A DNA stretch of 64,000 bases from Sabellastarte sp. h YS-2021 (lineage: Eukaryota > Annelida > Polychaeta > Sabellida > Sabellidae), in contig OZ024930.1 of assembly GCA_964017235.1 (NCBI GenBank), forward strand, positions 155,992,221 through 156,056,220. The letters are read 5' to 3'. The notes below the pieces were generated by a model. It had not been told where the DNA came from and did no database searches. It saw only the letters and a program-made list of their open reading frames with translations. Shown piece by piece: positions 10,694-59,900 of the stretch. Both the position numbers and the translations under genes were made by a program. Position 1 is the first letter of the stretch. Each line of letters begins with the position of its first letter.

Positions 10694-11083
10694 TTAAAAC
10701 AACTTCTTTGTCAAATACATCAGTAGTCCATAGTATATAACTATCTGAACAAATCCTTGACAATGCTCAGGATTTGCTTTGTTTGCCATGTCTTCGCCGT
10801 CCTGCTGACAAGATGCATTCCTCTTGTGACATTTATCAAACTCTTCATAATCCAGATACTCAATGGAACACAGATGGATTGTCTTACACTCACAATTACA
10901 TGTCATTTCTTCTTCATCCACTTTCACTGTGTTGAGGTCAAAGAAGGTATCAAAACTCTCACTGTTATGTTTCTTCATTTCTTGCAGTAGCCTGTGTATT
11001 TCGCCAGCACTGATGTTATGAAGGTTATAGGTTTCCTTAAAGCTGTACAGGAACTTCCATTCGGCTTTCATCAAGGAATTAGC
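10694..11083 (-). CDS. SMPDL3: SMPDL3 copy B exon 7 (C-terminus)
   Basis: Acceptor TTTGTCCAG; 129 codons and a stop. Starts ANSLMKAEWKFLYSF and contains the disulfide-type blocks CNCECK and CSIEYLDYEEFDKC. The end (VIYYGLLMYLTKKLF) is hydrophobic, suggesting a GPI-attachment signal or membrane tether. Confidence 0.92.
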   Translation of the reverse strand, partial: ANSLMKAEWKFLYSFKETYNLHNISAGEIHRLLQEMKKHNSESFDTFFDLNTVKVDEEEMTCNCECKTIHLCSIEYLDYEEFDKCHKRNASCQQDGEDMANKANPEHCQGFVQIVIYYGLLMYLTKKLF

Positions 11084-14000
11084 CTGGACAAATGGTTAAA
11101 AGATTTAACTAATAGATGTCAATTTAAGACAACAGTTATGCATTTTACAAACAATATATAATAGCAACTATTGAATTCATTGTGTATATAACCAACAGTC
11201 TGAAGTGGTTTGGAGAACTAGTTGTTGATCACTGCACTAACTAACACCTAGGCTACATAGTTCTGTGCAAGACTCACGAGTAATATATGAGATGAGCATA
11301 TTTAACTTGTCCAGTTTCATCAGTGGTTCGATGCTTTTGATATTTTGGTAGCATCTGTTAGCTTTTTTATTTAGGACATGTTTGCCACAACAGACGACAT
11401 TTTTAGATTGTAGTTGATTTTGAAATAAAATGTTTGAAAAGTCTCTTATGAGCTTTCATCAGCTCATCTTCAGGTTGGGGAGGGACGGTTGCATTGTTTA
11501 CATTTATTTTTATTTATTTGAGGTTTTACGTCGCTTCCAACACTGTACAGGTCATATCACAATGGGAAGTTGGAAGGGCAGAGGAAACCAGTACATACAG
11601 TTGGTCAAAGTTCTGTACTGTAAACTGCCAACCAACGGCAAGCAACTACCAGCTTTCCCACTTGAGGCCATGCCGGGAACCGAACCCAGGCCTCAGAGTT
11701 TACAGAATTGGTTAGGGTCAGTGGTGATTTCCCCACTTGTCATGTTGGGTTTGCAAAATATCAAACATGGGTCTCTGGGGCTTGTCGGTCATAGTTCCCG
11801 TCTTGTCCTATACTGTAACCGTCTTGTCTTGCCGGCCAGTCTTGGTTCAGTACAAAGACACAACCTCCTGACAAACCATAGACTATAACCAAGCCTACTT
11901 GAAAGGAAACTGGCCTGTCATACACATTATAGACCTGACTTTCTCTTCTCATCAAGACGGGAAGTCTCTAAGTCTTCGACCATAGAGAGTCGATAATGTC
12001 TCTGCAGGACAAGCCGGAAACACATCATAACAAGCCATAAACACCGACAAGGCAGTTACAGGAACAGACAAGACGGGAAGTGTGTAGGACAAGCTGGCCT
12101 CATTTTACCAACCCGTTGCTTGTCAGCTATGAAATCTATGACTATATAAGGTCAGTCGGTTTGAGCAATGCGTCATTTGGAATCTGGCATATGACGGATT
12201 ACATCTGGCACAGTTTAAGATAAGGCTTTTGTTATTTTTTACAAATTAACTAGGATTTAGTGTTGAGATACAAATTGGGCTTTTTTGTTGATAGGCTTTT
12301 GTTTTTTACAAACGCTGCTTATAAAAAGAAATATGGGTCCTAAAAGGGCAGAAGAATGGGGAAGATAGAAGTCCCCACAGTGACACCTACAGAGTTTGTG
12401 TTGGGGTATACAGCTACTGACATGCAGAGGAGGAGGGAGGGGAGACAACCGAGAGAGAGGAGGGAGGAGGCACAAACGACAGAGGGAGGAGAGGGAGGAA
12501 ACCAGGATGGAGGAAACTACACACTCAGCTGAGGAAGGAGTGGCCGAAAAGTCTGCAAGGACAGAGAGATGTGACACAGAAATGGACACAGAGCGTGGAG
12601 GAGATGTGGGCACATCTCAATTACAAATCAGGAACAAGAAGGAGCATATGACAAACATTTACTTAACAGACTCAGATGAGGGGGGTTTGTGGACTTTTTC
12701 AAGGATCACAAGAAGCTCTACAACAAGACCAACAAGCACTTTAAGGACAAGACCAGGAAGGAATGCCTGTGGGAGAGGTTCACCAACAGCCACAACAAGC
12801 TGTCTATAAAGATTTGGATCGAATCCCAAAGGACTCATTACTGCAAACTCACCCAGTCAAAGTCTTGGTAGGATCACAAGGAAATGGCAGAGAGGCAGAA
12901 CTGGATTCACGATAAATTTAACTTCTTGAAGACACACATCGGATGCAAGGGATTCAGCAAATTTTCAGGCCTTAGGCTTAACTGTGGGCTCAGACTTAGG
13001 ACTTTTGCCTCAGCTAAGTTTTGTCTTAAATCTTAGCTAATACTCTGGTCTAAATCTTTAAGACCACAATAAAACATTTTTAAACATAACAATGAAAACG
13101 TTTAGTTGAAAATGTTTAGTAACCCAAAAGATAGGGTTTACAAACGTTTTGTAAATGTTCAAAATATCTTTATATATTTTTAATGTTTACTGGGTCTGTA
13201 GTTGGAAGGAAAACAGTCGGTCGTAGATGGGAAGTCTCCAAGTTTTTGGTTGCAGTGTCAGTTTCATCACACCAGGGCAAGCTGAGAACACAGCAGGACA
13301 AGGCGTAAGAGGAAACTGACAAGACGGTTACAGCAACAGACAAGCTTGGAAATGTATAGGACAAGTCTGTTTCATCTCACCAACTTACAGCTTGTCCTGA
13401 GGAATGAAAAATCACAATATTTAAGTCAATAAAAACAAAATGGCCCTAAGCTTATATAGAAAGTCTCTCTGATGTATAGTTGCATCTTTGCAGTGATAAA
13501 TGATGAGTAACAGCAGCGACAAGGGGTTTATAAGGTGTTGCTTGGATCCCAACTTGCAATCCCGACGCCAGAAATTAATCAGTCTAGTCGGTGTGGATCA
13601 GGACACTGCTCCAGTCTTGTCTGTTTGTCACTACAGCTTGTCCTCACCTGATACAGCTTGCTGGTTAGGGCATTAAGACTTGTCCTGATAGTTTCTCATC
13701 TAGTTGTGTAGAAAAAAATATCTTCTGGATTTTTGTTCCCGATCCCGACTCAGCTAACTGACCCTAGAGTCAGGAAGGTTCAGTTAGGGTCGGCTCCAGT
13801 GGAACAAGTCCATAAGAAGGGGGTGGGGCCACTTTATGGGATGCCTCCTCTTTACATGAACATAACCAAGATACAAGGTCTCTCTTTAGAGTCATAAGGA
13901 CAAGGTTGGGAAGCAAAATTAAAATATAAGTTGCTACGACTGAAAGGAACTGTGACACCAGGCCTTAAGAGTTACAAGTAATATGAATAACATTGACAGA

Positions 14001-28900: not shown

Positions 28901-31900
28901 TATAAATATGTATGTATTCCTAGGTAATCTTGCAGTTACTATTTTAAAAATATATTATTAACATCATTAGATATCTGTCTGACTGATGGTTATAATTTTT
29001 TTTTTTTTTTGTTATTGTTAGAAAATGAACTTAAGATAAATTGAAAATGAACTTAAGATAAATTGAAAGACCAGTTAATGCCACTTGCATATTGAAAGAA
29101 TGTGGAAGTTGAGGTACTTAAAATAATGCAGCTACTTTCAGTTGATACTAAAAACCACTTACATTCAAATAGAAAAAAATGATAACTATTGGGAATTAAT
29201 AATCTTGAGGATGTTAACATAATATAACAAAAAAGCGCTAAACGGTATTGACTAACAGTTTAGTCAATACTGATGTCTACTTGACATAATATAATAAAAA
29301 AGCACTCAACTGTATTGACTAACAGTTGATACTATAAGCAGCTGATTCTTCCTACTGGTGCTGCAAAGCTTGATATCTGCTGATAATTTCTAATCTCAAG
29401 GGTGATTACACAACATATCATATAATAGTTTTAAATATACTAATATTTATTAAAAGTTCAGCTGACTATAGTACTTCATTTGTTAAGAATAATAAATTAA
29501 AGACTAAATGATATTTAGTAAAGAATGTGTGTAAAACAAAGTGTCAGCTGGGTATCTTGAAAAATTGCACTAATGTTAGCTGGGTATCTTGAATTAATGC
29601 ACTAATGTTCAATAATCAATGTGATGTTGTCTTTGACATTTTAAGCCAGTTATATTTGTATAGCCAGTTATATGTAAAGCTTAAAATAACATTACATCTC
29701 AAGAGTGGTCACACAGCATGGTATAAAATTTACAAAATATGTAAAATATAATGTACTTATTGAAAATTCACCTGACTATGGGCATTCATTAACAAATTGA
29801 ATATATTAATAAAGTCAACACTAAATGACAAGCAGTATCAGATGTGTATAAAAATGCTCAGTAATAAATATGTCCTTGGCGTTATGGGACATGTATATTT
29901 ATCTTTTTATTACGGTTTAAAAACTGATTATGATATTTAACATACTTCTGTAGGAAAGTCCTAAAAGGATATAACACTGTCCTTATATATACATGGTTAG
30001 GTTGGTAGCTATGATATTTCAAGTCCTAAATCAAGGACATCCAAGTAAGTTTGATGCATATTTGTACAGGTAACAAAAAAAAAACCAGTTACAAATTATA
30101 TCCAGCTTCTCACACAGTTATTATTATAATATATATTGTGTGATAGGCTGTGACCTTACACTTAAAGATATGTTATGACATAGCTAAGTATAATTATACA
30201 ACAGACATCAGTAATTGAAATAAAGACTAGGCAAAGTAAAAAAAACTCTTTATAATTGGAACTGAACAGTCTCCAGGCTTTATGTATATACAATGCCAGA
30301 ATGCAATTGTACTTGTTTTATGTATGGTCTGATGTGTGACACTATAATAAATTTAAATATGTTGCTAGGTATAAACCCATTTATCATAGTAACATTGTCA
30401 CTTAAGAAATATACGAGATATGTGTTTATGTTTTTGTACAGTATGTGGAAATTATTGAATCTAAAAGTATACGAAAGGCACACTAATTATGGCAGTTAGT
30501 ACTAAAGTATAAGACATTTTGGTAAATAATTTTGAAAGTTTTGTAATCCATGTAAAGGACATTTATTTATGCCAAAGTTGAATAGTATCTAAACAGGCAT
30601 AACTACAAAAGTCTGTGTGTGTTTGGTCTAACAATGTTCCCTTTAAATAATAAACCATTCTTCAGAGACCAATCATAAACAGGTGTGTATATAAATGAAA
30701 ATGGGAAAGACTAACCACTAATGTTTTCCAGGTAATTACTCCATTCTTTTTCATTTTTTTACCCTTTGATTTGTAGCCATAAATATTACTATGTGTATTC
30801 TATGTATTTGTCTGTGTTTAACAGTTGTTCATCTGTGTAGCTTATGCACTTGTAATTTTGTTTGTTTTGTTCTTTGGCATATTATTCACTGTGTGAAAAC
30901 TGAACTAAAACATTGTGGTGCTTGTAGGCCATATTTAAACTATAAGAACCGCAAACTTGTAGCTAGTATATCATGTTTCTTCATGGTGTATGTTACAAGA
31001 AAATATAAATTTGCAATCTTTTTGAGTTATTACAATGACACTTAATAAAATAAAACTAAATTCATTCAATTGTCGCGGTTTATGTGACAGGAAAAAAAGA
31101 CTTAATATTTTTCAGTGGCTTAAGCGTAATCATTCTGGCATAACAGCATTACAAGAAACTCACTCCACACCCTTAGATGAGCAAATTTGGCAGAAGGAGT
31201 GGAATGGTAAAATATATTACTCACATGGTCGGTCAAATAGTAGTGGGGTAGCAATCTTAATCCCTGATAAGATACTCTCTGATATAGAAATCACCAATAT
31301 AAAAGCTGATCAAAATGGCAGGTTGATTGTCTTAGAGTGTAAGATTTGTCTTAATCCATTTGTCATTATTTGTGTATACTTTCCCACTAAAGATAAACCA
31401 ACACAACAAATGGACTTTCTCAGCTATTTCAAAAGTATGGTAAATGACTATGTCGGTAAAAATTTACTCATTTGTGGGGACTTCAATATATGTTTAAATT
31501 TAAAATATGATAAAAAGGGGGGAAATAGAGAAATTGAATCATGTTGTGCAAAAGATTTAAAGTATTTTATGGAAGAAGTAGATATTGTCGATATATGGAG
31601 ATTAAGGCATCCAGACCTACTCCAATATAGCAGAAGAGAGAATTCAAAAACAGGATTTGTACTATCTAGAATTGACTTTTGGCTTGTTTCTACTGCCCTA
31701 GAATATCAAATTGAATTAACTACAATAAAACCTGGAAATAGTTCTGATCATAGCATTATTTCTATCAATTTAGAGTTACTGGATACTCAAAAAAGGGGCA
31801 GAGGCTTTTGGAAATTCAACAATAACTTATTAACTGATCATACTTATATTGATATTATTAAAAAGACTATCAGCGATATTAAAAATAATGATGTGATGGA

Positions 31901-34900
31901 GAATAAGTCACAGCTTTGGGATTTTGTAAAATGCAGAATAAGAAGTGAAACTATAGCTTATTCTATTCAAAAGTCAAGGACAAATAGACTAAAAGAAGAA
32001 AGAATCAAAGAGACATTGGAAAACTTGGAAGCATCGCTGGCCACGGATTGTAGCCATTTAGATGCATACTACAAGGCCAAACACAAGAATGGGAAAATTT
32101 TCAAAAGATAAAACTAAAGGGCTCAATTTTGCGGTCAAAAGCTCAATGGGTTGAAGATGGGGAACAAAATAGCAAATTCTTTCTAAATCTTGAGAAAAGA
32201 AATTATAATATAAAGCACATTAAAAAGCTTATACAAGGAACGAACATAATAACTGACCCAGTAGCTATATTAAAAGAACAAAAACGATACTATGATAATC
32301 TTTACTCATCAAAGCAACATCATTTTAAAAATTTCATTGAAATAGAAGATCATTTTTTGAGAAATACGGCTATTCCAAAACTTTCAAATGATGAAAGATA
32401 CTTTTGTGATCAAAAGCTACAGCCAAGAGACTACAACACTGCTTTAAAAAATCTTGCCAATAACAAGTCCTCTGGTTCTGATGGTTTGACAACTAACTTT
32501 TACAAATTTTTCTGGCCAGATATTCGTGACTTACTGGTAGCAAGCTATAACTATACTTATGATAACAAGCAACTGTCACAAGACCAAAAAATAGCAGTAA
32601 TAAATTTACTTCCTAAAAAGGACAAAGACCTGCGCTTCTTAAAGAACTGGCGTCCTGTAAGTCTACTTAACACCGACTACAAAATTCTAACAAAAGCCTT
32701 GGCACAAAAACTGCAGAATGTAATTGGCCAAATAGTTAACCGTGATCAAATTGGATATATAAAAGGCCGCTTTATTGGTGAAACCATCCGCACAATACAT
32801 GATATTGTGTATCTAACAGAAGAACAAAATATGAATGGCTTTATTACATTAATAGATTTTGAGAAAGCATTTGATAGCATTGAGTGGAATTTTTTGTTTA
32901 AGTGCTTAAAAACATTTAATTTCGGAGATGCATTTCTAGATTGGATAAAAATTTTATATACAGATATAAAATTGTGTGTTACTAACAATGGATATTACTC
33001 TGAATGCTTTAAATTGTCTCGATCAATTAGACAAGGTTGTCCTATTTCGACCCTCTTATTTATTTTAGTTGCAGAAATATTAGCAATAGCCATCAGAACA
33101 AATGAAAATATTCATGGCCTCCAATTTAATACCAAGATAAATCATACATATAAGCTTGCTCAATTAGCAGATGACACTACTCTCTTCTTGGCTGATCTTG
33201 ATTCAATTGCTCACAGTATTACATTATTTGATAAATTTAAAATGATTTCAGGTTTGACTGTTAACCTGGAAAAAACTGAAATAATTCCTTTGGGAAGAGA
33301 TAGAAATAAAACCATAAATTTATCAGGTAATTTGAAAAAGATCACTTATAACATGGGACCTTTTAAAACTTTAGGAATTTGGTTTTCAAATAATCATAAT
33401 GATGCAATTGACTTGAACTATTCTCCAAAAATTGAAAAAGTTAAAACACTGCTTCAAATCTGGTTGGGTAGACACCTGTCACTTAAAGGTAAGATAACAA
33501 TTTTAAGAGCTCTGATAATTATCACAGATTTCATTTTTATTTACAGTCTTGTTTGCTCCATTTTATATTCTTGAAAAACTAGATAAACTACTTCTGTCTT
33601 TTCTTTGGAGCAACAAAACACCAAAGGTAAAAAGAGAAACCATCATTGCAAGTATTGAGGATGGGGGCCTGAAGATGCCAGATATATTTGAAATAAATAA
33701 AGCAGCAAAAATCACATGGGTAAAGCGTTTAGCAATTGAGGAAGATGGTAAATGGAAAGATTTAACGTATAAGTTATTAAACATAGATCGACAACATTTT
33801 GTATATAAAATGCCTCCAGCATATGTTGATGCATGTAAAACAAAATTTCATAAACAATTAATGGAGAGCTGGATATCTATAAAAAACACTGTACCATTAT
33901 CATGTAATGAAATATTGAATGAATATATTTTTCACTCAAGCTTAATAACTTCTGGCAATGATGCACTGAATATTCAAAAGTTTGGATCTTTCTATAAACG
34001 AAGTAACTTCCTTAAACTTATAGACATTTATGATAAAACTACACGTAACATAATGACGAAACAGGCATTAGAAACCAAATTTAAGTGTTGCTTAAACTAC
34101 ATGCAGTTTTTGATGTTAAAAAGTGCTATGCCAGCATTATGGCTGAAAAAGCTAAAGTCTTCGTCAACTGAAAATATTGATAGGTCCCCAGACTCAATTT
34201 TTATAAAATTAGGACATAAGCTGGTTAAGATTGAACATACAAAAACTAAGGATATTTATGCACAGTTACTCGGTAAAAAAAAACACATTACCATCAGCGA
34301 TAAATGTATGGTCTAATCTTTTTCCTTTTTTAGAAAACTATTCATTGAAAGAAACATTTTTGCTACCTTTTAAAATATCAATTGAAGCCTTCTATCAAAG
34401 CTTTCAGTACAAAATTTTGAATAGAATATTAAATTGTAGAGAAAATCTTTTTAAATGGAAAGTAACCAGTGATCCAAACTGCACTTCATGCACAGCAGTA
34501 GATACAATAGAACACCACTTGTATTATTGTAATGTGAGTGTGAAGTTTTGGAAACAACTGTCAGAATGGTTGAAAAGTATCTTGGACATTAAATTTAACT
34601 TTACAGTATGTGAAGTTTTTTTTGGTTTTTGGCCATCTGATAACGTAATTTTTGAAGCAATCAATTACCTAATGCTTATTGGAAAATGGTTTTTGAACAA
34701 TAAAAAGAGTGAGAATAAAGAGGTGCATTTTTCAGAATATTTAGTTTTTATAAAATCAAAATTAGAAGTCTTACTGGAAGTGAACAAGAATAATAATAAA
34801 GCATTCTTTATATTACTTGACAAAATACTAAACAGTCTACAGTGAACCAATTCAGTACAAAAAGGAAAGAGTTGTAAATTTGTTTTCACCATAACTGATA

Positions 34901-37900
34901 TTGTTTATTGTTAGAACAGTGGTTGGCATTATGTGTGTAAAAATTACACATTTGTCTTGTGTTTTTTGTGTACACTTGTAATATTGTATTGTGCCTAATT
35001 GTGTTTGTGTTTGTATTGTATTTTTGTATGGTATGTTTATGTTTTATGAAAAATAAAAATATGAAAAACAAAAAAAAATGATTACATTTTTGCACTTACC
35101 TGTAGTCCCCCAGGAGTTCAGAGGAAGCCTTTTAAAATATATTGACCCTGGGGGATACTTGTCCCCAGGATTAAGGAGCAAATCCGCAGGAGCAAGGCGG
35201 ACCCCTTAAATGCACCTCAGTAACCAAATTTGTCCATCTCACAGCCTCTGATGAGAACTGACAACTCATCGAAATATTGACACCAGATTAGGTGTAAATA
35301 TAAGGCAGAGATACATTTTGAGTCTTGACCCTTTCACTGACACAACACTTATCTTGAACCTTTGAGTGGTGTTTGATTTTAACTTAACTCTTTCAGTCAT
35401 AAAATCCACCATAGTCTATGCTACATATCTCTACCAAATTCGTCCCCTTCTCAACCTTAAAACACCAGTCCTTCTAGCAAATGCTTTCTTAAGCAACAGA
35501 TTGGACTACTGCAATTCCCTGTTTGTATCACTGATTTTGAGTTAAGAAGATTCCAGCAGGTCAAAAACACACTTTGCAGGGATGTCACTCACCCTCTAAG
35601 TTCTCTCATATTACCCCTCAATTAAAAAAAAACTCCATTGGCTCCAAGTTAGGTAGAGTGACCAATTTAAAATAGGCCTCATTACATACAAAATTCTAAA
35701 CCATGGCCAACCAGTTTACCTGAGTGAATTAATTCCCCTTCAAACCTCCTCCAGAAACACAAGATGCAGCAGCCTTGAGTTCCTTCACATCCCCACCTTT
35801 GACCGTACAGTTCACAAATAAAAAAAAAACACTTTTCAAATTCTTTCAGTCACTATGCCCCTGTTCTTTAGAACTCTTTCCCTTTCCATATAAGAAATAG
35901 CCCTTCTGTCACATCATTCAGGAAACACCTTAAAACTCACCTGTTTAACTTAAGTTTCCCCACCTAGTCTCCTTATCTTTTGGTTACACCCATAACTCTA
36001 GATAACTGACCTTGTCTGCCCCTCAACTATCCTTATGACTGATGTATTTGTTACCATAGCACACAGAGTTCCCATTTGTGGGGAAGATATTGCGCCTGAA
36101 AAGCAGTAGATTACATTAGAAAGTATGTGACGCCACTAAATACAAAGATGTATATCTTCATCTGTATTTCCTATATTTAAGACAAATACAGTGTGTGGTG
36201 TGTACTAAATGTCTTTATCATGGGTACTTACAGATTACAAATGTCACTACAGCCGAAATACAAAAGTCTTGTATGTGCTTGTTATATGTAAGTAAGTTGC
36301 TTTTCTAGCGAGCTTTATTAGGGTTATAATTTCTACTTGAAATCTGCACACAAAGTAGTACTTAGCAAATAAAGGTACATCTTTATATCTTATCAGTGGC
36401 CAAGATTCACTACAGATTAAACTGACTGTTTTATTTCTAATGTGTGTCTATTTAAGGTATATGCCAAATTAAAAGCAAAGCAATATTTTTTTGTGATTGA
36501 ATATTGCTGCAAGCCACACCTCAAAGTCACATGTACACACACGCACAAATCCACTCACCCAGACCACAGAATAAAGTCAGCATTTGCCCCTCTTTCTATA
36601 CTCTTCATGGCGTTGACTGAGGATTTCACCAAAACCCAGGGTGGGTGACAATTAAAGTTTCCAAACTTCCCTGGATCTTGCAGGTCCTCTCCACAAGATT
36701 CCTGCCTGGTTTCGTACCAAGGGTCATAATGCACATCAGTCAGCTGCCAGAAAAACCCTGGAAATGTAGAAAACTGTAGCATGCATGTTCAATGCAGATT
36801 TGAAAAGTTATGAAAGTCTAAATGATTGAACAAATGTGAAAACATTGATTTCACCACTTTAAATGACTACGCCATCACCGCTTGCAAAAGCCAAATAATG
36901 GGTTTGCCCATGAGTCCTTTACCATGATACAGCACTCTTTAAATGCATTCACCAGGTGTTTGGTTAGAATGTGTAGAATAAACTACATTAACTATATGCT
37001 GATATTGAAGATCTACAAATCTGTTTTGAAAATATTCACACAAAGTGTGACAGTTATGTCATGTATGATTATATATAAAAATTTATCTTAAATATTCTAC
37101 TCAAGATAAAAATAAAAAGATTTAAAAAAAAGATTAATTAATTTATTTTACACCTTGAATCATGTGATCTCAACCAGTCGGTTAATGATCCTACCCATCT
37201 GCATGTGATCATGTTTGACCTCATTTTATCTCTCGGTAATCTGGATACAAGCGTTAATGTTAAAATCTGTAAATTTTTATCCAACCACTCAGTCGTCAAA
37301 TGTTCCATTTCGAGCAGTAGAGTGCTTTAGGCACCATGTTACTTAAATGTGATCTACATGAACAGTACGTACATGTTCTTAGTGAAATTCTCAACAGATA
37401 TGGGCCACTTGTGTCTAGACTGATAAAAAGAGCCTCCTGATTGGTTGTCGGTGTCTTATCCAATTGCAAAGTCCCTGAGGCATCAATTTGACAGAGCATG
37501 ACATAGAGTGAATAATACACTTAGTAAAAGTCAACTTTGTTGTCAAATTTCTTGGTGCAAACGACTTGAAATAAAAAAAATAAGTCATCTATTTCGCAAT
37601 CCACATCAAAGAAAAATAGTCAGCATTCTAGAAAGTTATGGCAGGAACTACATAAAGCCCTGAACATGGCTTCTGAAAATACATTACCTTTCCATCAGTC
37701 AGGGAAGTCATTCTTCAATTAGTTTGCATCTTTTTTCTCCAACAAAATTATGAAAAGGTGAGATAGATTTTTCCCTCTGACCCTAAAAGTGCTGTACATC
37801 CTCTTCCTGATGTTACCATAATTACTGTCTTTATTCAAGTTTCTGGAAATGCTGTCAATAAATAATTGCTAACTTACTAACAAAACCTTGTTCTGTCCCT

Positions 37901-41477: not shown

Positions 41478-42025
41478 CCTTTTCTACAAACACAATTAAC
41501 TTAAAATATATTCTGTCAGATGAATATAAAACTCTGTTTGAAAGTTTATATATTTAAAGTACACACTAATAGTTGCAACCCTTTTTCACAAATGTTTATC
41601 TGATGATGTTTAAAACAGCCATGTCGTAATAGACAGCAAGCATCTTGGCCAGTTATTTATGGATAAGGTATTGTGTAAAAAAATACACACTTGTTTGTAT
41701 ATCGCGTGGAAGAGGCTTATGGGGACAGTTAGCATTGGTCTTCCCAGGGCTTATATTCACCAGCATTCACAATTTTAAAAAAAAACTTTTGTTAATTTAT
41801 TTTAATATCCTATAAAGTAGACAGAATAATACACATGAAAGAATTTATAAATTCCTTATTGTTTTAGAATTCTTACGTAATCTTTAGTGGGCAAAATATA
41901 TTCAAGATAACACATATTACCACTTATTTCACAAGCTAGGTTCAGTTTAGTACAAGTCCCTTAGTGAATCATTTGAACTGGGCAGAGTCTGTGAGGTCAG
42001 AACCAGGTGATTAAATGCCCAACTT
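40946..42025. other. Around exon 1 of gene copy B
   Basis: Apart from exon 1 (41408-41477), this is AT-rich sequence with no further coding signal. The copy B promoter should lie just above 41477, but no clear TATA box, CpG island or initiator stands out. Confidence 0.4.
41408..41477 (-). CDS. SMPDL3: SMPDL3 copy B exon 1 (signal peptide)
   Basis: Starts at ATG (41477-41475) and encodes 23 residues plus one base. The stretch FLTAILLYL is a short hydrophobic signal-peptide core. The exon ends GATGAAG before donor GTAAATC. Phase 1 matches the exon 2 acceptor exactly and rebuilds the glycine before FFWQLTD. This assignment rests on phase and signal character rather than on paralogue comparison, because the copy A counterpart is not seen. 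Confidence 0.75.
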
Positions 42026-43655: not shown

Positions 43656-43876
43656 TACTGCTCAGCCAGTGAATTTCGTCACCCCAGTGAAGTTCGTCAC
43701 CTGCATTTTATGACAATATTAAATAGTTTTTACTGTCCAGTTACGGCATTTGTATATACCTTGCCATTGAAAGTAGCTATTCCATTTATTTAAATGTGAA
43801 TATTGCCTGTTCTTGAGCGTTTTTATGGCAGGTGACGAACTTCACTGGGGTGACGAAATTCACTGGCTGAGCAGTA
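43656..43876. mobile_element. 221-bp MITE with perfect 49-bp terminal inverted repeats
   Basis: The left end TACTGCTCAGCCAGTGAA and the next 31 bases are the exact reverse complement of the right end. Within each TIR a motif of 17-18 bp (CAGTGAATTTCGTCACC, CAGTGAAGTTCGTCACC) occurs twice in tandem. The ends read as TA plus CTGCTC, consistent with TA target duplication as in Tc1/mariner-type MITEs. Perfect TIRs suggest recent activity. Confidence 0.9.
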
Positions 43877-44411: not shown

Positions 44412-44545
44412 GCCTTGGGTCATTGAATGTACACATTCCCAATTGAATTTACACATTTCACATCTCAGCCATTGAATGTATACATTCAATGATTTGCCCA
44501 CTGAGTGTACACATTCAATAGCTTGACCCATTGAATGTATACATA
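44412..44545. repeat. About five ~30-bp units with palindromic TTGAATGTAYACATTCA
   Basis: Units carry TTGAATGTACACATTC, TTGAATTTACACATTT, TTGAATGTATACATTCAA, TGAGTGTACACATTCAA and TTGAATGTATACAT at roughly 30-bp spacing, separated by CCCA-type linkers. The TGAATGTATACATTCA core is a perfect palindrome. Confidence 0.8.
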
Positions 44546-44672
44546 AATCTGAACTCCTGCAAGCAATTCAACGTGTAAAACCGGTTCAAAACAAGTACAA
44601 TACCGGTACAAACAGGGGTACAATCAAAAACCCCAAGAGTACTTCAGGGAGTCCAGATGCAAATAAATCATA

Positions 44673-44742
44673 GCCTCTGATGAGACTCTACTCTGTACTC
44701 AGCAGTCGAAATACAACTGACATATAGTTGATTATATAAGGC
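44673..44742 (+). ncRNA. Type I hammerhead ribozyme of the Penelope-like element
   Basis: GCCT - CTGATGA - GACT...AGTC (stem II, four pairs) - GAAA - stem III - TA - AGGC. Stem I pairs GCCT with AGGC. Stem III pairs three bases next to the core (A/T rich) and CAACT with AGTTG around a 7-nt loop, with a small asymmetric bulge. All core bases of the hammerhead are present and the predicted cut follows the TA before AGGC. The stem III sequence differs from the copy at 35244 but keeps pairing. Confidence 0.78.
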
Positions 44743-44989
44743 AAATAATATTTTATTTTCCTAGTTTGAGTGTAAGCAGGAAGTAGTCTTATTGGTATTT
44801 CACTACGAGTGCTCCTTCAATTACTGCTAGCCAGAATGACTTCTGTGATGCCACATCAAGTGCCAATGTCACTCCAGAACCCAGTAGTGGTTATGACACA
44901 CCCATCCAAAGAACAAGAATCTCAGATGAGACTATCAACACCCTCACCTCTGTCAGTGCCAGACTTGCAGGAGTAGAATCCGAGGCAAG

Positions 44990-45324
44990 GCAAATGCACT
45001 TACTGCCCTTTGATTAAGAAAATCAATAAAGTCAAGTGTATCTTCACCCATAAGTCATACCAACTAAAGACTTACCAAAACATATCATGTGAATTATCAA
45101 ATGTCAGATATTTGATTTCTTGTAAAAAATGCAATAAACACTATGTCGGTGAGAAAAGTAGGGCATTAAGGAAAAGAATGTATGAATACAAAGCTTCAGC
45201 ACAAAAATATGGACAAGACACACTAGTGCCAGGCCACTTCAAAAGTGAAGGGCATAACCACAGAGATATGCTGTTCTCTGTGCTAGAGTGGTGCACACCA
45301 AAATTTGACCACCAATACAGCTAG
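44990..45324 (+). pseudogene. GIY-YIG endonuclease domain of Penelope-like element
   Basis: The leading Cys pair (CTYCPLIKK), then VRYLISCKKCNKHYVGEKS (GIY-YIG core with the internal CKKC knuckle), RALRKRMYEYKAS (catalytic Arg region) and GHFKSEGHNHRDML match Penelope-like C-termini. The frame stops at 45324, but homologous sequence continues after the stop (ARRKYLGYSNCTA, GINQF), so the C-terminus is prematurely cut. Confidence 0.85.
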
Positions 45325-45787
45325 GCGCAGAAAATATCTTGGATATTCAAATTGCACTGCCTAGCCCCAATTGGGCATCAACCAATTTGTGTGAATCTTT
45401 TAGGTATCATCCAGACTACATTGCACTCAGTAGTCTACCCTCTTTGTCTTTTACACTTCTAAAGTATCTAGCAATGGTGTAATTGTTAAAGGGAGATACA
45501 TCAAACAATAATTTGGTACCCACAATGCAGATTGAGGAAGAGTCATTCTTGAGTACAGGAGGAGAATCTGTACTCAAGGAAAGTAAGTACATTATGGACA
45601 TTAATTTCAATTGGTAATTTCATAAACACTAAATACGCTAAAAAAGTTTTAAAATGGGCAGTGTGTGCAGCCAGGGTTGATGGTATATAAGCCTGGTCAA
45701 TTCAGAGTGCCCAGGGTAAACATGTACTATGTTTAATAAATGATTATTCTTTAATCCAATATATACAACAACTAATAATTATTTACA

Positions 45788-46643
45788 TACTGAAACCAAG
45801 GCCACCTAGCTAGAATATATGTATCGCATTAACCAATTTGAAGTTTACACTTAATCTAGAGATTTAACTCTAATTACAATGAGGTGGCCATAACTTAAGT
45901 TCACCTTAATATAATAGTGTATAAACATAATCATTAGCATCAACTCTTAAACTGTGAACTTAAATCAGTTTAAGCGGACAACATGTTACATTGAAGCGGC
46001 CATAACTTGAGATTAGCCTATATTGATAGTAAGTAAAGTACTGCTGGTTATTTGAACGTAAATATGTAAATATACAGAAGCAGTAGAATTAGCCTGACCA
46101 CATATTTGGAGTCAGGCATCAAGGTCAAGGTGACTAAAAGATTTGTTTGTGTCATGCACTGGGGAATTTAAGATTTAAACCCCTTACTTCAAGATTTAAA
46201 ATACTGTTTAAGAATTACTGAAACCAAGGCCACCTAGCTAGAATATATGTATCGCATTAACCAATTTGAAGTTTACACTTAATCTAGAGATTTAACTCTA
46301 ATTACAATGAGGTGGCCATAACTTAAGTTCACCTTAATATAATAGTGTATAAACATAATCATTAGCATCAACTCTTAAACTGTGAACTTAAATCAGTTTA
46401 AGCGGACAACATGTTACATTGAAGCGGCCATAACTTGAGATTAGCCTATATTGATAGTAAGTAAAGTACTGCTGGTTATTTGAACGTAAATATGTAAATA
46501 TACAGAAGCAGTAGAATTAGCCTGACCACATATTTGGAGTCAGGCATCAAGGTCAAGGTGACTAAAAGATTTGTTTGTGTCATGCACTGGGGAATTTAAG
46601 ATTTAAACCCCTTACTTCAAGATTTAAAATACTGTTTAAGAAT
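45788..46643. repeat. 428-bp tandem duplication, essentially identical copies
   Basis: 45788-46215 is followed directly by 46216-46643 with no difference that I could find over the lines compared (offset exactly 428). The unit begins TACTGAAACCAAGGCCACC and ends TTTAAGAATTAC. Non-coding; it contains two related GGCCATAACTT blocks. Confidence 0.92.
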
Positions 46644-47590: not shown

Positions 47591-47986
47591 TCATAAAAAC
47601 AACTTCAAAAGCACCAGAATTCCACAATATATAACCGTTGGAACAAATTCTTGATATTGCAGAGCATTTGCTTTGTTTGTAGCTGTTTTGTCATTCTGTT
47701 GACAAGCCATTTTCTTTTTGTAGCATTCATCAAACTCTTCATAATCCACATACTCAATTGAACACAGGTAGATTGACTTGCACTCACAGCTACATTTTCT
47801 CTCCTCTTCTCCTTCCACTCGAGTGTGTACTGTGTTAAGGTCAAAGAAAGTGTCAAATTTCCCACTGTTTGGCTTCTTTATTTCTTGCAGTAACCTGTGT
47901 AATTCCCCAGCACTGATGTTGTGGAGGTCATAGGTTTCTCTAAAGCTATACAAGAAGTTCCATTCAGCTTTCAGCAAGGAGTTGGC
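47591..47986 (-). CDS. SMPDL3: SMPDL3 copy A exon 7 (C-terminus)
   Basis: Acceptor TTCTAG; 131 codons and a stop. ANSLLKAEWNFLYSFRETYD aligns with copy B. The exon is less conserved than exons 3 and 4 and has a 2-codon longer acidic loop (RVEGEEERK). Hydrophobic tail. Confidence 0.92.
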   Translation of the reverse strand, partial: ANSLLKAEWNFLYSFRETYDLHNISAGELHRLLQEIKKPNSGKFDTFFDLNTVHTRVEGEEERKCSCECKSIYLCSIEYVDYEEFDECYKKKMACQQNDKTATNKANALQYQEFVPTVIYCGILVLLKLFL

Positions 47987-50900: not shown

Positions 50901-53900
50901 TACTGCTAAATTCTTCAGCCAATATCAAAAGTCAGTAATTATGTTCTGTATAATATACCATGTGTTAAGATCATCTTATCAAATAACAGTCAGGCTGAAA
51001 TGTGAATTATATTAAGAAACACAACATTAAAATTATTTTCATATTCTTACCATTTTTCCACCGATATGAAAAACCAAAGATTTTTAAATTATACAAGTTA
51101 GCTGAATTTATAGTCAGTGAGTGCATGAAAAATGATACTACATGTTAGAGAATATGTGTGGAATTTAAAAATTGCATTTATTTACAGCTAACAGATTCAG
51201 TGATTATGAGTATTCACTAACTTGCATATTTAAATTCAATCACCACAACATTTACGTATGCATACATGAGACATTACTGTACATAATCAAGAACTATACC
51301 TGCACTGCTATATGATCTCTATCATTTTTATTTTATGTGTCTTTGAATATGCTATCACTGGTTTAAACATTGCAGATTCATAATGAGATTAGATTGCCAT
51401 CACTTTGTCTGTAGATATTGGCACATGGTAAAATAAACATACTTTGTACACATTAAATCTCACAGATTATGTATATATATATATCAAGATAAACCATGTA
51501 AGCTTAATGATCCATGGTTATTCAGCAGCCTTGTGGACTAACTCTATTGGTTAACATCTGTTTATTATGATATTAAGCACTGTAATATCTTGTCACCCTG
51601 ACCACAGAATGAAGCCACACGTATGGTGTGAAATAAATAACCCTGATAATTATGTTTTGTTTACAATGTAGCCATTATTTTACCATCCTTTTGTAGAAAG
51701 GTTTCTTGATAACTTTCCCAAGTAGTGTCAACAAAAATTGTTAGAATTTAATTAGGGATATGGTGTAAGTAATACTTTCTGTTTGTCCCCTCAGTAAGAC
51801 AGAGGATGTACCCAGAGCTCAGCCAAAGTGTCTGTACAATAATTTAAAGATTGATAGTATCGATTTGATACCTTTATTATTAAATAGCAGAGTCACCAAG
51901 TAAAGGAGAGTGAATAAAATTTAAACAACTTCTTTCATGTTTGCATGAGGACCTCAATGGCCTTTCGAAATAATCACTGTACTAGCATTCTATGCCTCTG
52001 TGGTAGACAATTCAAATGTGTAAAAATACTGAAGATCTGTAGTAAATTTAACCTTGCTGTTAATAGGGATGTGAAATAACAAACTTCAACTTTTATCCCT
52101 TAATAAGTCAGATATTTTTGAGGTGTTTTTACTGTGGTCAAAATATACTGTTCGCTCAGAACCTGTCTTGTTTACTTTACCTTTTCTCCATTATATCTGG
52201 ATTTATTCATGACGCTCTCTAGCCAAGCAAATTGTCCTCCAGGATCCTCTTGTCCTTGTGTAACTTTATTATACTTTAGGTAGAGATTGGTGTTCAGTAT
52301 AACAGCTCTGACTTTAGGACTCTCACTTAGGGTACTGGTAAAATATGCTCCTGTAGAAATAATTATATTGATAAATATCCATAGTATTCAATAGAATTAC
52401 ATGTAACAGTTACATTAAATGTTTAATGTTTAAATATGGCAGGTCAGCCAAAATGACAGTTGTTTCCGATGTTTTGCTAATGCAAGTGATGAGGCTGAGT
52501 CAGAAAAAGTGAAATGTTTCATCTGTGTGAGTGATGTTGACCGAATGTAAATGATTGTATTTTACCAAAGTAAGTGATGACGCTAGTCAGTGTAACTGTT
52601 ACAGCTCCCAGGAAGTTGAAGACAATGAAAAAGGCAACTGGGATTATAATATATATATTCTAAAACTACATTGTCATTGCAGAAGCACATATCAATTATT
52701 GTTTTGTTATATGTATATGTATAAGTGTTATAGCTAACTGGCAACTCCACCCAAGAACCCAAAAGGCTGCAAATGTCAGCCAGGAATCGGGAAAGGTCAA
52801 ATCCAAGGTCTTAATTACAGGTCGGACCTAAAGGTCAAACAAGGTCAAACCAAGGAAGCAAGCAGACACAGAATGGATTGAAGGGTGGAGTAAACAGTAA
52901 TTAAATAACCAGTGTGTTAGGTAATCAGTAATGAACTGTAGTTCATTGTAACCCTTCACTGAGTTTATATATTTAGTAAACATATACATATATATACCTC
53001 TGTAGTGAGTGAATGAAATGTACAGAAAACACCCAAGGGCCCAGTAGAATTAGTGATGAAGAACTCGTCGAAAAGCAAGGGCAACAGGGGAAGTAGAAGA
53101 AACAGCTGATGAAAGATATGACCAAATGGCATCTGACTTCCAGGTGCCATGGCTTCTAATGTGTTCAATTGGAACACCTTGATGGAACGCCCAAGAGGCG
53201 CCAGCCCTTCTGAAGTCATGGAAGGTGATGGAAGAAGGAAGAGCTAGAGCTTTGGAGATATCTTTTAAATGTTTTCTAGCTGTAGAGTCAGTTAATGGGG
53301 AAGAGTGTGTTGGTCTAGGAAGAAGAAAAAGGGGGGAATCTTCATGTGCTGGGTATAGGTGGAACATTAATTTTAAAGCTTTGATTGGGCACAAGGAAGA
53401 AGCTCCTAAATCTGGAATAGCTATTGTAGCAAAGTTCTTCCTATCTTGGATAGTCTTGGACCATTTTATTAGAATCAAAGCACCGTCTTGTGAGAAAATG
53501 ACATCACCTCTGGCTAGGTGCCTAGTATTGTCAAAAGTGTTAATTGAATGAGGGAGTACATTGGAAAGCCTTAGGAAGGAGAAGAAAAGTAACAAGTACA
53601 GTGTTTTAAAAATAATTGGAAATTGGAAGAAATCACACTGTTGGATAACTTGTTCCAACACATGGATATCCAAGAGGTTGACTCGTTTTGGGGTAAATGG
53701 GGCTTGTAGCTGTGTGGCTTTAACGTATAATGCCAGTCTCTGGTCTCTGAAAGGAGAGGTATCTAAGCCATGTAATATATGCAATGATCTAAGGGCTGCT
53801 AAATAATTTTGCATGTGAGCCGAGGTGATGGTATTTTGGTGAAGATATTCTAGAAAAGATAACAGAATTTCAACAGTTACCTTGAGAGGCAGCCCAGCCA

Positions 53901-56900
53901 CCACCTGGAAAGCCAGGAAGTCAGTCCAAAGCCTATGATACTGTCTTAATGTGGAAGGACGAAAGCCATGTTGAAGTTTGGCTGCAGCTGAGGTGGCCAG
54001 CTGGGCTGTTGCTCCAGGCAAGCTGAAAGAATAATAATATTAGATGGTATGATTAAGTAATGTCAAATCTAAGTGAGTGGGAACCCATTGAAAATTTGGC
54101 AAAATGGCATTTAGACGTGCCAAGTCAGTATTAGAAAAGGTCCACCTAGACAACAAGTCTGCGAGAACATTTTGTTTTCCAGGGATGTGAACTACAATAA
54201 GGTCTATATTGTAAAGGGCACAAATAAGCCATATATTTCGAGCACATGTAGCTAGCGTTTGATCCCTAGCCTTTCCAGCTTGTAATACTTCGACCACCGC
54301 CATATTGTCACAATAAATTTTTATTCTATGATTGGCCCAATGGCTAGCCCATATTTTAAGGGCAACAACTACATTCAAAATTTCTAAGTGGACAATTGTA
54401 TAGTTTCCATGTTTTACAGGAAGAGAAAGTGCATAGACCATATCCTTGAAAGCACCACCTAGGCCTGTAAGGGATGCATCTAAGTGGACCTCAAAGTGAC
54501 AATACTTATTATTATAGAATGTCACACCATTGTAGTGAACCAAAAAGGAATTGAACCAATTAAGATCTTTTTTGAATTCAGCAGTAAGTAAAATTTTGGA
54601 ATTAGTATGGTTGTCTCTAAGCAGTTGGAGCATACGATTAAGAAAATACCTTGCAGATTTAACACATTTTGTAATATAAAGAAGAGATCCTAAAAGTGAC
54701 TGTAGATCTTTCTTACTACAGTATGTTCTGTCATTCCAGTCTCTACATGTGGCATTTATTTGTGAGAGTTTATCTGGTGGCATAGATACAGTTTTGTTGA
54801 CGGAATCAATGAGAATACCGAGGCATACGACGGAAGTTGCGGGCAGTACTAACTTTTTGGTGCTAATATCTAGACCTAACTGTTGAAGTAAGGTGGTTAG
54901 GAACTGGAAAGAGTTCTGAATTTCAGATGGAAGGCCTATATAGATTAAATCGTCTATATAATTAAAGAATGTATGGAAGCCATGGGAAGCCATAATGTGA
55001 TGAATGGCATCTGTGCAACGCTGGAAGATTTGTGATCCGTGACGAAATCCGAACGGAATTGATCGATCTATATAATATTTTTGATTAAATTTGATGCCTA
55101 AAAGGTCTATGTCTGCAGGATCAACTTTTATCTGCCTGAAGGCCCTGCTGATATCCACTTTGTAAATTTGTGCAGAAGGACCAAGTTTTCGCAAGCAATC
55201 CGTTATAAGATCTATAGAAGGATAACGTAAATCGTAAGTTGTTTGTAAATAAGAATCTTTAAGTACACCATCATTGACAGAAGCACCATGTGGCCAACTA
55301 AGATCCATTATGGTCCGTTTGGTAGATGAATTTTGTTTATCTCTTACCATAAGTGGTGATACATGCAATGAAATAGGTTTATTGTGAAATGGGCCAAGTA
55401 TGGCTTTAAATTTCAATTCTTCTGTCAAATATTCCTGTACAGATTCAGAAGATGTAAGGGCTGAAGTATGGTTATTTTCGTTAGATAACAGATTAAAAGA
55501 TCTGTCAAAATCAAGAAGGAAGCCATATTGCAACAAATCGCATATTTGTGCATCCCAGTAACCTTGCAAATGGCTTCTCCATGCATTGATATTAAGACCT
55601 GATTGAACAGGAATACGACATTTGAGAAAGTTGGGTAATCCGGATTGTCTGATTAGTTTGTGAGCTTTTATCAGATCCGGGATAGTATCCCAATAAATTG
55701 GATCCCCAGTATAGATCTTGAGCGGTGAAGTGGGCAGGAAGCCAAAAGTTGACTGGTGTACCTCAGATGAAGACTTTATGTTTTGTGAAGGCATAACATT
55801 ATTATCATCACAATGTGCTATATTAGGCACAGAATTAAGATATTGAGGTTTTAATTTGGTACTAATTCCTACATTTGGAATAATTGTGTGGCTATCTAAA
55901 CTTGTGGATGTAACCTGAGAAGCCATATTTGGACGAAAGCCCATTGTGACAGTTGTATTGTCGCAACCCTCAGTGAAAAACCCAGTTTCGTTTTTATTGC
56001 CCTCCAAAGTTTGAAAATTTGCTTGAATAGCCAATTGTGGCTTAGATGAACTGTCAGATAGACTTTGACGTTGTTTTTTAATGTTGTGATTATTTTTCAA
56101 CTTGACAGTGCTCTGACTATTCTGTAGCTTAAGTTTCAGAGGAGTTGCATTCAAGTTAATATCAGCTTTTAGCTGTGTGGTATTGCAGCAATGCGACAGG
56201 TCTTCTGTCGGTTCAGTGACTGGGGAACCTTGAAGTGGTTCGAATCTGTTTTTGAGTGTTAAAACATTCACATTGATAGCCTTGTGTGGTTGTTTATTTG
56301 CTGTGGTCACACTGCCACCATGTGCCTTTACACATGCCATGTCAGTTGGTGTCACGGCAGATTTTTTGCCATCATTTTGAATTTTTGACAAGTTTTTTAT
56401 AGCACCTGTATAGCAAGTTCTCGCTTTATTTACGTTTTGAAGTTGAGTTGGATTCATTTTAGGTGTATGAACCTGGGAATCACGTTTGTGGCTCGAAACC
56501 TGTTGCACTGTGTTATTTGAAGGGAACTTGAGATTTTTTGATAAAACTTGTGCATAGGACATTTGTTTGGTAACCTTTTAAAATGCATTTGCATATGTAA
56601 TCCATTGAGTGGTCAATGTTTTAGAAGCTTGCAATTCTTGTTTTGCAAAAGGCACATGGCTACTGTAAACATAACGGTTGCGAAATTTTTGGATGGGATC
56701 AGAAAAAGTCCCACCCACCTTCATTCGTTTTTTGAAACCCGTTTTGACTTGTTTCTGCAATCATGCTCTGCATGTGGAAACAGTTTGGAATTTTGTTGGA
56801 AGCAGTAAGAACATACATGACGATAAGTGACACCTTTAGTTTCGTGGGTTCTGGTGTGAACGCATGTCCCTTGGTTAAAATACGTGCAGTTGAGTACTTT

Positions 56901-59900
56901 GGAATTTTTTGATCTTTTTTGAGAATTTTTTGAATCAACAGGGGAAGTGACATGTCTCTGAGCATTTGCTCGTCTAATTCTGTCCAGCTTATCTGTTTCC
57001 AAGTAACTCTTAACTTCGCCCTGTTTCATTCTGCATAATAATACAGCATGGCTGGCCATTGCTGCATCCCAAGAGAAGTCATGGGCGTCGTCCATCAATG
57101 AAATCAAGTAATCTAACATATGATCTTTAATTTTTTGGTCCCTTTCTTCTCTTAGAATGCGGCAATAGCCAGCAACCCATTGTACAGTAGTCAACTGGTC
57201 GTATTGGATTCTTTCTTTACTCGAACCCGAGAGCACGAATTCATGGGGCCACTTCACACGGTTCGGGACTACAACTTCTACAGGTCCGCCCCTTAAAGAT
57301 TTTATTTTTGTACCTGTAGCATCTGCAGAAGCTTCTTGCTTCTGAAGTAAGTGATCTTGTCTAATTGCATGTAGATCTGGCAAGGTTGTGTTGGTGGTTT
57401 GTGGTGGTGGCAGTGTGACCGGGGTATTAACCTGCGAACTAACTTTCTGTTTTTATTTTTTTATTTTTTTTGGATCCGAAGTTTTCTTGGAATTTGTACT
57501 CTCAATGGCATTCAAACGGTCATTTATTGCAGACAGTTGTGATAAGATTTGCACGTTTATTTGCTGTTGAAGTGCAGAATCAATGCCAGTCGCAGAAGTA
57601 CTGACGGAAGTACTTGAAGTACTCGGCATGGTATGTGTTTGTTTATTTGTGCTGTGATCCGAATCAGAATCGTCAGCGACAGCACTACAATTTAATTCAG
57701 ATTCTGCCGAATCAGAATCTGAATCATGTTGATTTTGATGCAATAAATTCTGAACGAATTGGGAATCATTTTGCATCTGTATAGAAGCCGGTACATGTAC
57801 AGTATCTTTGGTAGAACGCAGGTTATACTGTTTCGTTTCTGCTTCAGCCATTTGTTACAACATATATATATACAAGTAAAATAACATAAAACCACTTGAA
57901 ATATGGTGCAAATTCCAAAAGTGCTTGATAAAATTTTCTTGGTGCTGTGTTGCCAGTGCCTTTCAACTTCAAAATGGCAGATGATTAGGGGTTGAAACAG
58001 GGAGGCCAGGTGAGGACCAATCACATTGGACCACATGTGGTGTGTACCAAAATAATTTAAGGTAGGACCAACTTCCCCAGAACTGAACTGCCCCACACCT
58101 GCATGTGGCCCCGAAATATTTGACCAATATAAGTAATAACGCTGGGATATGTATGTGATGATCTGTAACATGTGTATATGAAGACATCGAGTCAACAAAA
58201 CCAATACTGTCTACAAAGTAGTACATTGAAATTAATGGGCTCTTGAAACCTGCAAATAGAACTCACCCAACATTTAATATGTTCCACAGACGTTCATACT
58301 TTCTTGCTTCACTTTAATTTGTCAAACATCTAAATTCAGTGGAACTTGGGGTTATACTGTATAACTGTGTCTTTAAATTGGACATCAAATCAATTATGCT
58401 CCGTTTAGTAATTTAAGTTAAGCACTAAATTGTTACATTGCTGGTGGATAAACAAGCACTAGCTTTGTTCTTCTGCATTACATGATATTACAGTTGATTT
58501 AAAATTACTTCTTTATGTCTAAAAACAGCAAGAACAACATAATTTCAATATATCGCTGTTTATCAATATGTATTGACATAAACTCAAGTTTTACATTTAC
58601 TCTTCGTAGAAAAAGGCAACTGGCTTTTTTAGGGGCAATTGTAAATTCAAAAAATGGCACCGTAAATTGACGCCAGTTTAATCTGCATATGTGTACCAAA
58701 GGGGTGTCAAATTACTGCATAAAGCAGCACATTTGTATATTTCTATGTTCAAGCCTTCAGAGGCAAAGCATATTGTCCAATTAGTAGCATACATAGATAT
58801 ATAGACATGTATTCAGAAGGAGTCCATATTAGAACACTGATACCTTTTAAAGACATTCTGATGAGGCATGCTTTATCCTGATTGACTTTTTAAATTTTGA
58901 GTATGACATAATAAATAGTGAGCATGATATAACTGGTACTCACCAAATCATCTGGTACTCACAAAATCTTCCTATGAGCTCAAGAAGTTCTCACAAGAAA
59001 CTAAGTTGGTATTACAATCTCGAGAAATATATGCTAAAATCAAAGTCGCAGTGTCCAAATTCAGGTACAATGAGGTTCTCTTTAAAAATATAAAAGAAAA
59101 AGTAAGAACAATATAATAATTAGTGGTCATGAGATGATATCGTGTTTACAAGATTCTCTGCTGAAACTAACCTTGTCTGAAGGTATCTTGTGTATCCGCA
59201 GTATCCAGCCAGTCACTCCACATATCCGCTAAACCATTATACAGTGTATTATTCTCCCCAGGCAGTTGGTGTTTTGGGAAGTAGTCATGGTTACCTATCA
59301 CTGGCACCACCAGTGTGTCAGGAAACTCCTTCACTATAATATCAGTGATGTTCTGTGTTATTTCCAAAACCATTTCTGTGTTTAGCAGACTCAGGTTTTT
59401 TGCATGGGCAGCATTGTCTCTGAAAAAAGTTAAAGTTATGGTGATATGTCCTTTCCAGCAGATTAAGTTATATCAGGACAGACACTCAGTTAATCCCATA
59501 TCCTACCGTGAACTGTGTTGGAACCCACGACCAAGGAGAAAAGAGAGAAATGATGAAATGCTGAATTGGTCAACCACCCTTTATAAACCACTGAGACCTT
59601 GAGTAAAAAGAAATTGGTTAATGTCTTTGGAGTGTATGATACCACTGATATTATCTACTAGAAATTTTGCATCACTGTCAGTACACATTGTTCAGGTTAT
59701 ATCACCATATGCAGATTTAAAAGATGAAAAAAAAACTGGGCATACTAACTTTTTCAAGATTTTTTTTCTGAACATAAATAGGGCCCAGGAATTTTATCAC
59801 TTAAGCTCATTGCAGAGATTCAGACATAGAACTTCTCAAGTTGGAAATTAGTTCCCATTACACTGTATAATCAGTGATGACTGTGAGCTCATCAAAGTAC

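Follow-up and report, generated by a model that had tools for sequence, protein, structure and literature searches.

A motif of 70 bases at 44673-44742 of the stretch analysed here, a window of 64,000 nucleotides, was described in an earlier note as a complete-looking type I hammerhead ribozyme attached to the remnant of a Penelope-like element (PLE). This raises the question of whether the motif is a hammerhead at all, whether it belongs to the element beside it and whether this copy could still cleave itself. Our reading, to which we assign a probability of roughly 85% with the model of its origin included, is that the motif is a worn type I hammerhead from the pLTR of a canonical PLE family.

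The motif and the PLE segment in the window

The letters at 44673-44742 proved to be as described, GCCT-CTGATGA-GACT...AGTC-GAAA-...-TA^AGGC, with the claimed core and paired stretches, and they contain the invariant core of CTGANGA, GAAA and UH before the cut. When both strands were scanned, a type I hammerhead descriptor matched the window at this place alone. Its parts are as follows.

44673..44742, + strand: type I hammerhead motif, with the core CTGATGA at 44677-44683 and GAAA at 44708-44711
Between 44738 and 44739, + strand: predicted cut, after TA, from the descriptor match
44673..44676, + strand: 5' side of stem I, paired with 44739-44742; pairing in 55 of 56 cells (98.2%) when 14 copies are aligned
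44684..44688, + strand: 5' side of stem II, paired with 44703-44707; the fifth pair is C.C in the window copy
44711..44721, + strand: 5' side of helix III, paired with 44727-44737; 11 positions

By itself, the motif is weakly better than chance. In Markov-simulated copies of window positions 10001-64000 (54 kb, both strands, 150 copies for each setting), a stem II of 3 bp gave 0.047 descriptor matches per copy and one of 4 bp gave 0.027, and demanding two further helix III pairs left 0 matches in 150 copies. Because the descriptor was written after the motif had been seen, the true chance rate is higher than the simulated one. Covariance scores likewise leave room for the view that AT-rich DNA has brought together CTGATGA, GAAA and short complementary stretches by chance, in no relation to the endonuclease remnant. 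Under a model derived from 27 viral hammerheads, 44673-44742 had a low lone score of 15.5 bits (E 0.014), which ranked second in the window to a match at 41594 (15.9 bits) that we rejected as spurious, without stem II and GAAA.

In the window, Rfam yielded nothing at gathering and, at e-value thresholds, no usable hammerhead score, the best hammerhead match being 12.7 bits (E 6.1). The 34 bits of RF00163, a database threshold and not a defining trait, were not reached by the window motif. The score below threshold that the earlier note had named as grounds for refutation was thus obtained, but it does not refute the motif, and the Rfam negative carries little weight, because viral control hammerheads also miss gathering: 11 viral loci fetched by a hammerhead pattern gave 0 matches at this level, and three textbook hammerheads in the viral locus L081 scored 25.1-30.2 bits against the cut-off of 34. 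An RF00163 search of the window's genome gave 0 matches, and 14 control genomes likewise gave 0, so this search is uninformative. Many of the viral contigs, e.g., L033, L062, L081 and L100, carry several textbook hammerheads.

The motif lies within a segment whose homology to the aligned loci starts at 44564-44582 and stops at 45435-45459, with the following parts.

44564..45460, + strand: PLE-derived segment; pLTR end with the hammerhead, frame start, then endonuclease, without reverse transcriptase
44805..44985, + strand: roughly the first 60 codons of the PLE reading frame, from tblastn
44977..44989, + strand: junction of frame start and endonuclease, common to locus L124 on another chromosome
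44977..45321, + strand: GIY-YIG endonuclease fragment, with a CxxC stretch before it (Pfam PF01541)

The N-terminus of locus L154 was matched by tblastn at 44808-44966 (residues 2-54, 66% identity); the first codon of the window frame is ACG, and that of L154 and L159 is ATG. A GIY-YIG domain had been claimed 250 bp downstream of the motif, and the GIY-YIG-encoding frame indeed starts at 44977, about 235 bases downstream. The fragment scores 19 bits against PF01541, under the cut-off of 22.6, and shares about 65.9% identity with the L135 endonuclease. A tblastn search with the reverse transcriptase (RT)-endonuclease frame of L135 matched the window copy at the endonuclease end alone and found no reverse transcriptase, and a direct repeat beside the copy, as a pLTR partner, was sought and none was found. 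In the PDB, a sequence search with the endonuclease piece gave a best E of 0.036, to unrelated-looking chains. The viral and prokaryote collections gave one viral locus, L001, and nothing in genome contigs; L001 was rejected as a relative, since its GIY-YIG protein is of a different type and none of its listed frames encodes a PLE reverse transcriptase.

The window holds several further features. Immediately upstream of the PLE segment, at 44421-44546, short palindromic repeats CATTGAATGTAYACATTC lie 20-30 bases apart, and at 43656-43876 the arms of a perfect 49-bp inverted repeat, set 123 bases apart, resemble a small DNA transposon remnant. A direct repeat at 45788-46515 has identical copies of at least 300 bases, 428 bases apart, and a G-rich tandem repeat of ~8.5 kb, with GC up to 0.58 and strong strand skew, lies at 1330-9880. 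Recombinase-like and RT-like frames at 53050-57854 (- strand) resemble what we take to be a DIRS-type element, and frames at 31026-34845 (+ strand) resemble a LINE. Similar frames ~37 kb apart, at 10694-11095 and 47591-47986 (both - strand), are perhaps a duplicated host gene end.

Sibling copies: element structure, folding and covariation

A search of the source genome (1.79 Gb, 647 contigs) with the DNA of 44560-45460 gave at least 47 matches (40 of 2,414 candidates scored), mostly to the endonuclease end, with several that include the hammerhead; among the loci examined, the hammerhead descriptor was matched by four besides the window's own (L131/L156, L147, L153 and L154). At L135, a single 576-aa frame combines RVT_1 (36.9 bits, cut-off 29.6) with GIY-YIG (23.7 bits, cut-off 22.6), and L133 scores 25.8 bits for GIY-YIG. 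Over about 3 kb, L154 presents in order the hammerhead, the frame start MSAPSITASQ, reverse transcriptase-like frames and the endonuclease, while L137 has the hammerhead region twice on one strand (101-394 and 2522-2732), flanking an endonuclease at 1501-1958. The one-frame RT-endonuclease, the ordered parts of L154 and the flanking copies of L137 are canonical PLE traits. Because of the L135 frame and the L137 hammerheads on either side of the endonuclease, we assign the hammerhead family to the PLEs, and a predicted family order of N-terminus, reverse transcriptase and GIY-YIG endonuclease is part of the best explanation. The attachment of the motif to a PLE remnant is borne out in this way, by the endonuclease fragment in the window and by the PLE traits of the sibling loci L135, L137 and L154, and the genome search for pLTR structure that had been proposed with it yielded the direct hammerhead copies of L137.

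Fourteen copies, the window copy and 13 others, were aligned. Their common design comprises stem I GCCT/AGGC, stem II GACTG/CAGTC and an 11-position helix III that runs directly from GAAA to the cut site. Position 4 of helix III is a C.A mismatch in 13 of the 14 copies and C.C in the remaining one, and the fifth pair of stem II is G-C in 10 of them. The stem III proposed earlier, CAACT/AGTTG, does pair, but this register is suggested only by the window copy's own changes, and the siblings show 44711-44721 with 44727-44737 instead. The outer stem I pairs vary widely among the copies, and the outer part (loop-loop contact) is not clearly conserved; an outer stem I of AAATAAA/TTTATTT, plausible in the window copy, was discarded as broken in many siblings.

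The hammerhead is the best predicted fold in 5 of the 14 aligned copies. In the rest it exceeds the best fold by 0.1 to 9.2 kcal/mol: by no more than 0.9 in 2 copies, and by at least 1.6 in the remaining 7, the window copy included. At L137:127-238, a gap of 3.4 kcal/mol is due to an extra pair at the cut site, and the stem II probability is 0.98. Five further units, taken from arrays and from the loci of a second genome search, all folded best as hammerheads, and a hammerhead fold was obtained for 10 of 14 variant strings of a family pattern, to which we had supplied the stem I letters before folding. Among the viral controls it was the best fold in 26 of 27, the remaining one being within 0.4 kcal/mol. 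In the window copy, unlike these controls, the hammerhead is 4.5 kcal/mol above the best fold, with a probability of 0.003 for the closing pair of stem II, and the predicted structure pairs the core with the 3' portion of the stem II region. The copy looks worn because of this pairing, the C.C in stem II and a second helix III mismatch, at position 7, besides the C.A at position 4. Judged by these folding models, the hammerhead family looks competent and the window copy worn, and we infer that the latter is probably inactive. The suggestion that it is intact enough to self-cleave is therefore not supported; its identity as a type I hammerhead, with three helices and helix I open, was upheld by the same core and better stems in the siblings, in several of which the hammerhead is the best fold.

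A family covariance model, R2, pointed to a second motif in the window.

35242..35308, + strand: divergent hammerhead-like motif

R2, built without this motif, scores it at 39.1 bits (E 4e-7). It combines an 11-position helix III, interrupted by one G.A mismatch, with a stem II of just 2 bp, and its best fold pairs the core instead (-18.0 versus -10.7 kcal/mol for the hammerhead). The surrounding DNA has at least 40 genomic matches (40 of 291 candidates scored).

Covariation in the 14-copy alignment was not above shuffles, with no pair changed on both sides, and RNAalifold retained helix III and preferred a different pairing over stems I and II. Across the genome, the family pattern gave 339 matches (217 + 122) and a broad hammerhead pattern 2,141 (1,156 + 985), and each gave 0 when reversed. 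A second covariation set consisted of 14 of the 15 distinct strings counted among the family-pattern matches listed. In these, helix III has 7 double-change cells, a number reached by 0 of 5,000 shuffles, which ignore relatedness, and the count rises to 11 when the 35242 motif is added.

A chance match would be in keeping with the low lone score of the motif, its second place behind a spurious match, the Rfam negative and the competing fold of the window copy. In the siblings, however, the motif recurs with an unchanged core and better stems, both patterns match in large numbers but not at all when reversed, and helix III shows paired changes. The homologous genomic copies rule out a chance origin, which we hold to be extremely improbable, and they settle the matter: to judge from the sequences compared, the hammerhead motif is real.

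Arrays without reverse transcriptase and the origin of the window locus

The second genome search gave 42 matches, with regular spacing in several places, and the genome holds a striking series of RT-less hammerhead arrays.

Contig C1, 186.12-186.14 Mb: seven listed units, steps of 1933-1935 bp
Contig C7: five units, steps of 1934 bp
Contig C5: four units with a strand change mid-array, steps of 1540 bp
Contig C1, 139113-266477, near the contig start: all broad-pattern matches listed, steps mostly about 1157 bp
Contig C2, 51.92-52.09 Mb: long array, family-pattern matches listed, steps mostly 1527-1547 bp

Unit lengths are thus about 1157, 1540 and 1934 bp, and the sampled units keep endonuclease remnants. 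The four units of L188 are 98-99% identical in a self-alignment shifted by one unit, and in each a stub of the frame start (N-terminal) is fused to the endonuclease. L189 has homology to the frame start and the endonuclease, and L194, a unit of the C2 array, holds pieces of both. In a ~1157-bp unit sampled in L191, a piece of the C1 array at 139113-266477, a remnant of the endonuclease end is found (38% over 45 aa, E 2e-4), and the hammerhead is not the best fold, with a stem II probability of 0.09. No telomere run was present in the first 360 bases of contig C1. Unit orientation is flipped mid-array, like head-to-head pairs, at C5:4516152-4521287, C7:54981785-54989531, C2:23597191-23600586 and C11:81510187-81513028.

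That RT-less hammerhead units exist in long tandem arrays would fit a different history, in which the window hammerhead came from a retrozyme or satellite unit inserted by coincidence next to a PLE fragment. We consider this very improbable, as the sampled array units L188, L189, L191 and L194 themselves contain PLE pieces, L154 runs from the hammerhead through frame start and RT region to the endonuclease, and L137 has the hammerhead on both endonuclease sides.

The ends of 13 oriented copies of the 14 were compared, L161 being left out without a matching core string. Between pairs of copies, homology mostly stops at C3+117 to +136, just before the frame, and those among L159, L164, L169, L181, L185 and L186 extend to C3+241 to +263 or beyond. 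At the array junctions, the left side falls at 44918-44924, which corresponds to nt 114-120 of the frame, and the right side at 45110 to 45178, the left breakpoints being constant whatever the right one. For an Anolis PLE, reverse transcription is reported to begin 111-118 nt into the frame (PMC11167929). Since the left breakpoints are constant and near this start, fixed 3' ends abutting 5'-truncated copies are favoured for the arrays.

In this family, the ribozyme precedes the frame start by about 60 bases, and every copy has it close to the 3' end. In our working model, read-through transcripts from tandem or partial-tandem copies would be cut at the ribozyme and reverse transcription would begin inside the RNA shortly downstream of it, in which case inserted copies would end either just past the ribozyme or within the frame, at about nt 115. 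The window locus would then represent such a 3' end abutting the 5'-truncated endonuclease part of the next copy, or else an internal deletion of the reverse transcriptase.

With the same PLE origin, the latter possibility holds that the locus arose within one copy and not at the junction of two tandem copies. L124, on contig C11, aligns without a break over 44653-45204 (87%) and has the 44977-44989 junction in common with the window, which suggests that the RT-less form was copied as such. The window junction at ~44985, about nt 180 of the frame, matches neither of the two main 3' ends, as an internal deletion would allow. The array left breakpoints, on the other hand, are fixed at 44918-44924, as for a fixed 3' end, and the homology of L130 ends at 44989, which might mark a 3' end there. 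We place internal deletion slightly short of even odds, and for the window copy it is nearly as likely as a tandem junction.

Comparison with known hammerhead systems

In the accessible portions of the relevant papers, PLE hammerheads are described as minimal, usually without helix III (PMC6155905, PMC7229834, PMC7761336), and such minimal forms may cut as dimers (PMC7761336). Similar to these PLE/Terminon systems, as far as the available text of each source extends, the family described here has a type I core in the pLTR near the frame start and occurs in tandem or partial-tandem copies (PMC11167929, PMC6155905, PMC7761336). It departs from the minimal form, in which helix III is absent or nearly so and dimers are involved (PMC7761336, in its accessible part), by a helix III of 11 positions and by siblings that are predicted to fold as monomers. 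Relative to the published descriptions, within the portions of them that are accessible, the predicted long helix III is a new structural variant of the PLE hammerhead. The cut of Anolis PAc lies 26 bp inside the frame (PMC11167929), whereas the predicted cut here precedes the frame by 66 bp. The ends near nt 115, from a different PLE family, are consistent with the internal initiation of reverse transcription reported for Anolis.

The arrays invite comparison with metazoan (non-LTR) retrozymes, which also have type I hammerheads in RT-less tandem repeats, as described in the available part of PMC7229834. Retrozyme RNAs are given there as about 170-400 nt, whereas the present units span about 1157 to 1934 bp, contain PLE endonuclease remnants where sampled and are seen at the DNA level. 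Like the hammerhead satellites of Schistosoma and amphibians, the arrays place hammerheads within satellite-like repeats; those satellites have shorter units than here, with no PLE remnant mentioned in the accessible text of PMC7229834, and the amphibian helix III is given in the same text as very weak, compared with 11 positions here.

Tandem PLEs and hammerhead satellites are already known. A search by title and start of abstract, mostly outside the subscription literature, found no description of PLE-derived hammerhead arrays. As a tentative proposal, which we think doubtful on balance, monomer-capable PLE hammerheads with a long helix III and RT-less units multiplying as retrozyme-like arrays or satellites might link autonomous PLEs to hammerhead satellites, perhaps via circular or multimeric RNA. 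PLE hammerheads have so far been described as minimal forms needing a partner or protein, and the full helix III makes it testable whether they cut as monomers. Likewise, the graded series within one genome, from an RT-bearing element through RT-less single copies and short arrays to arrays of satellite size, makes it testable whether hammerhead satellites and retrozymes arise from PLEs or are mobilised by them, and the better-preserved arrayed copies may help to show the passage from PLE to satellite DNA.
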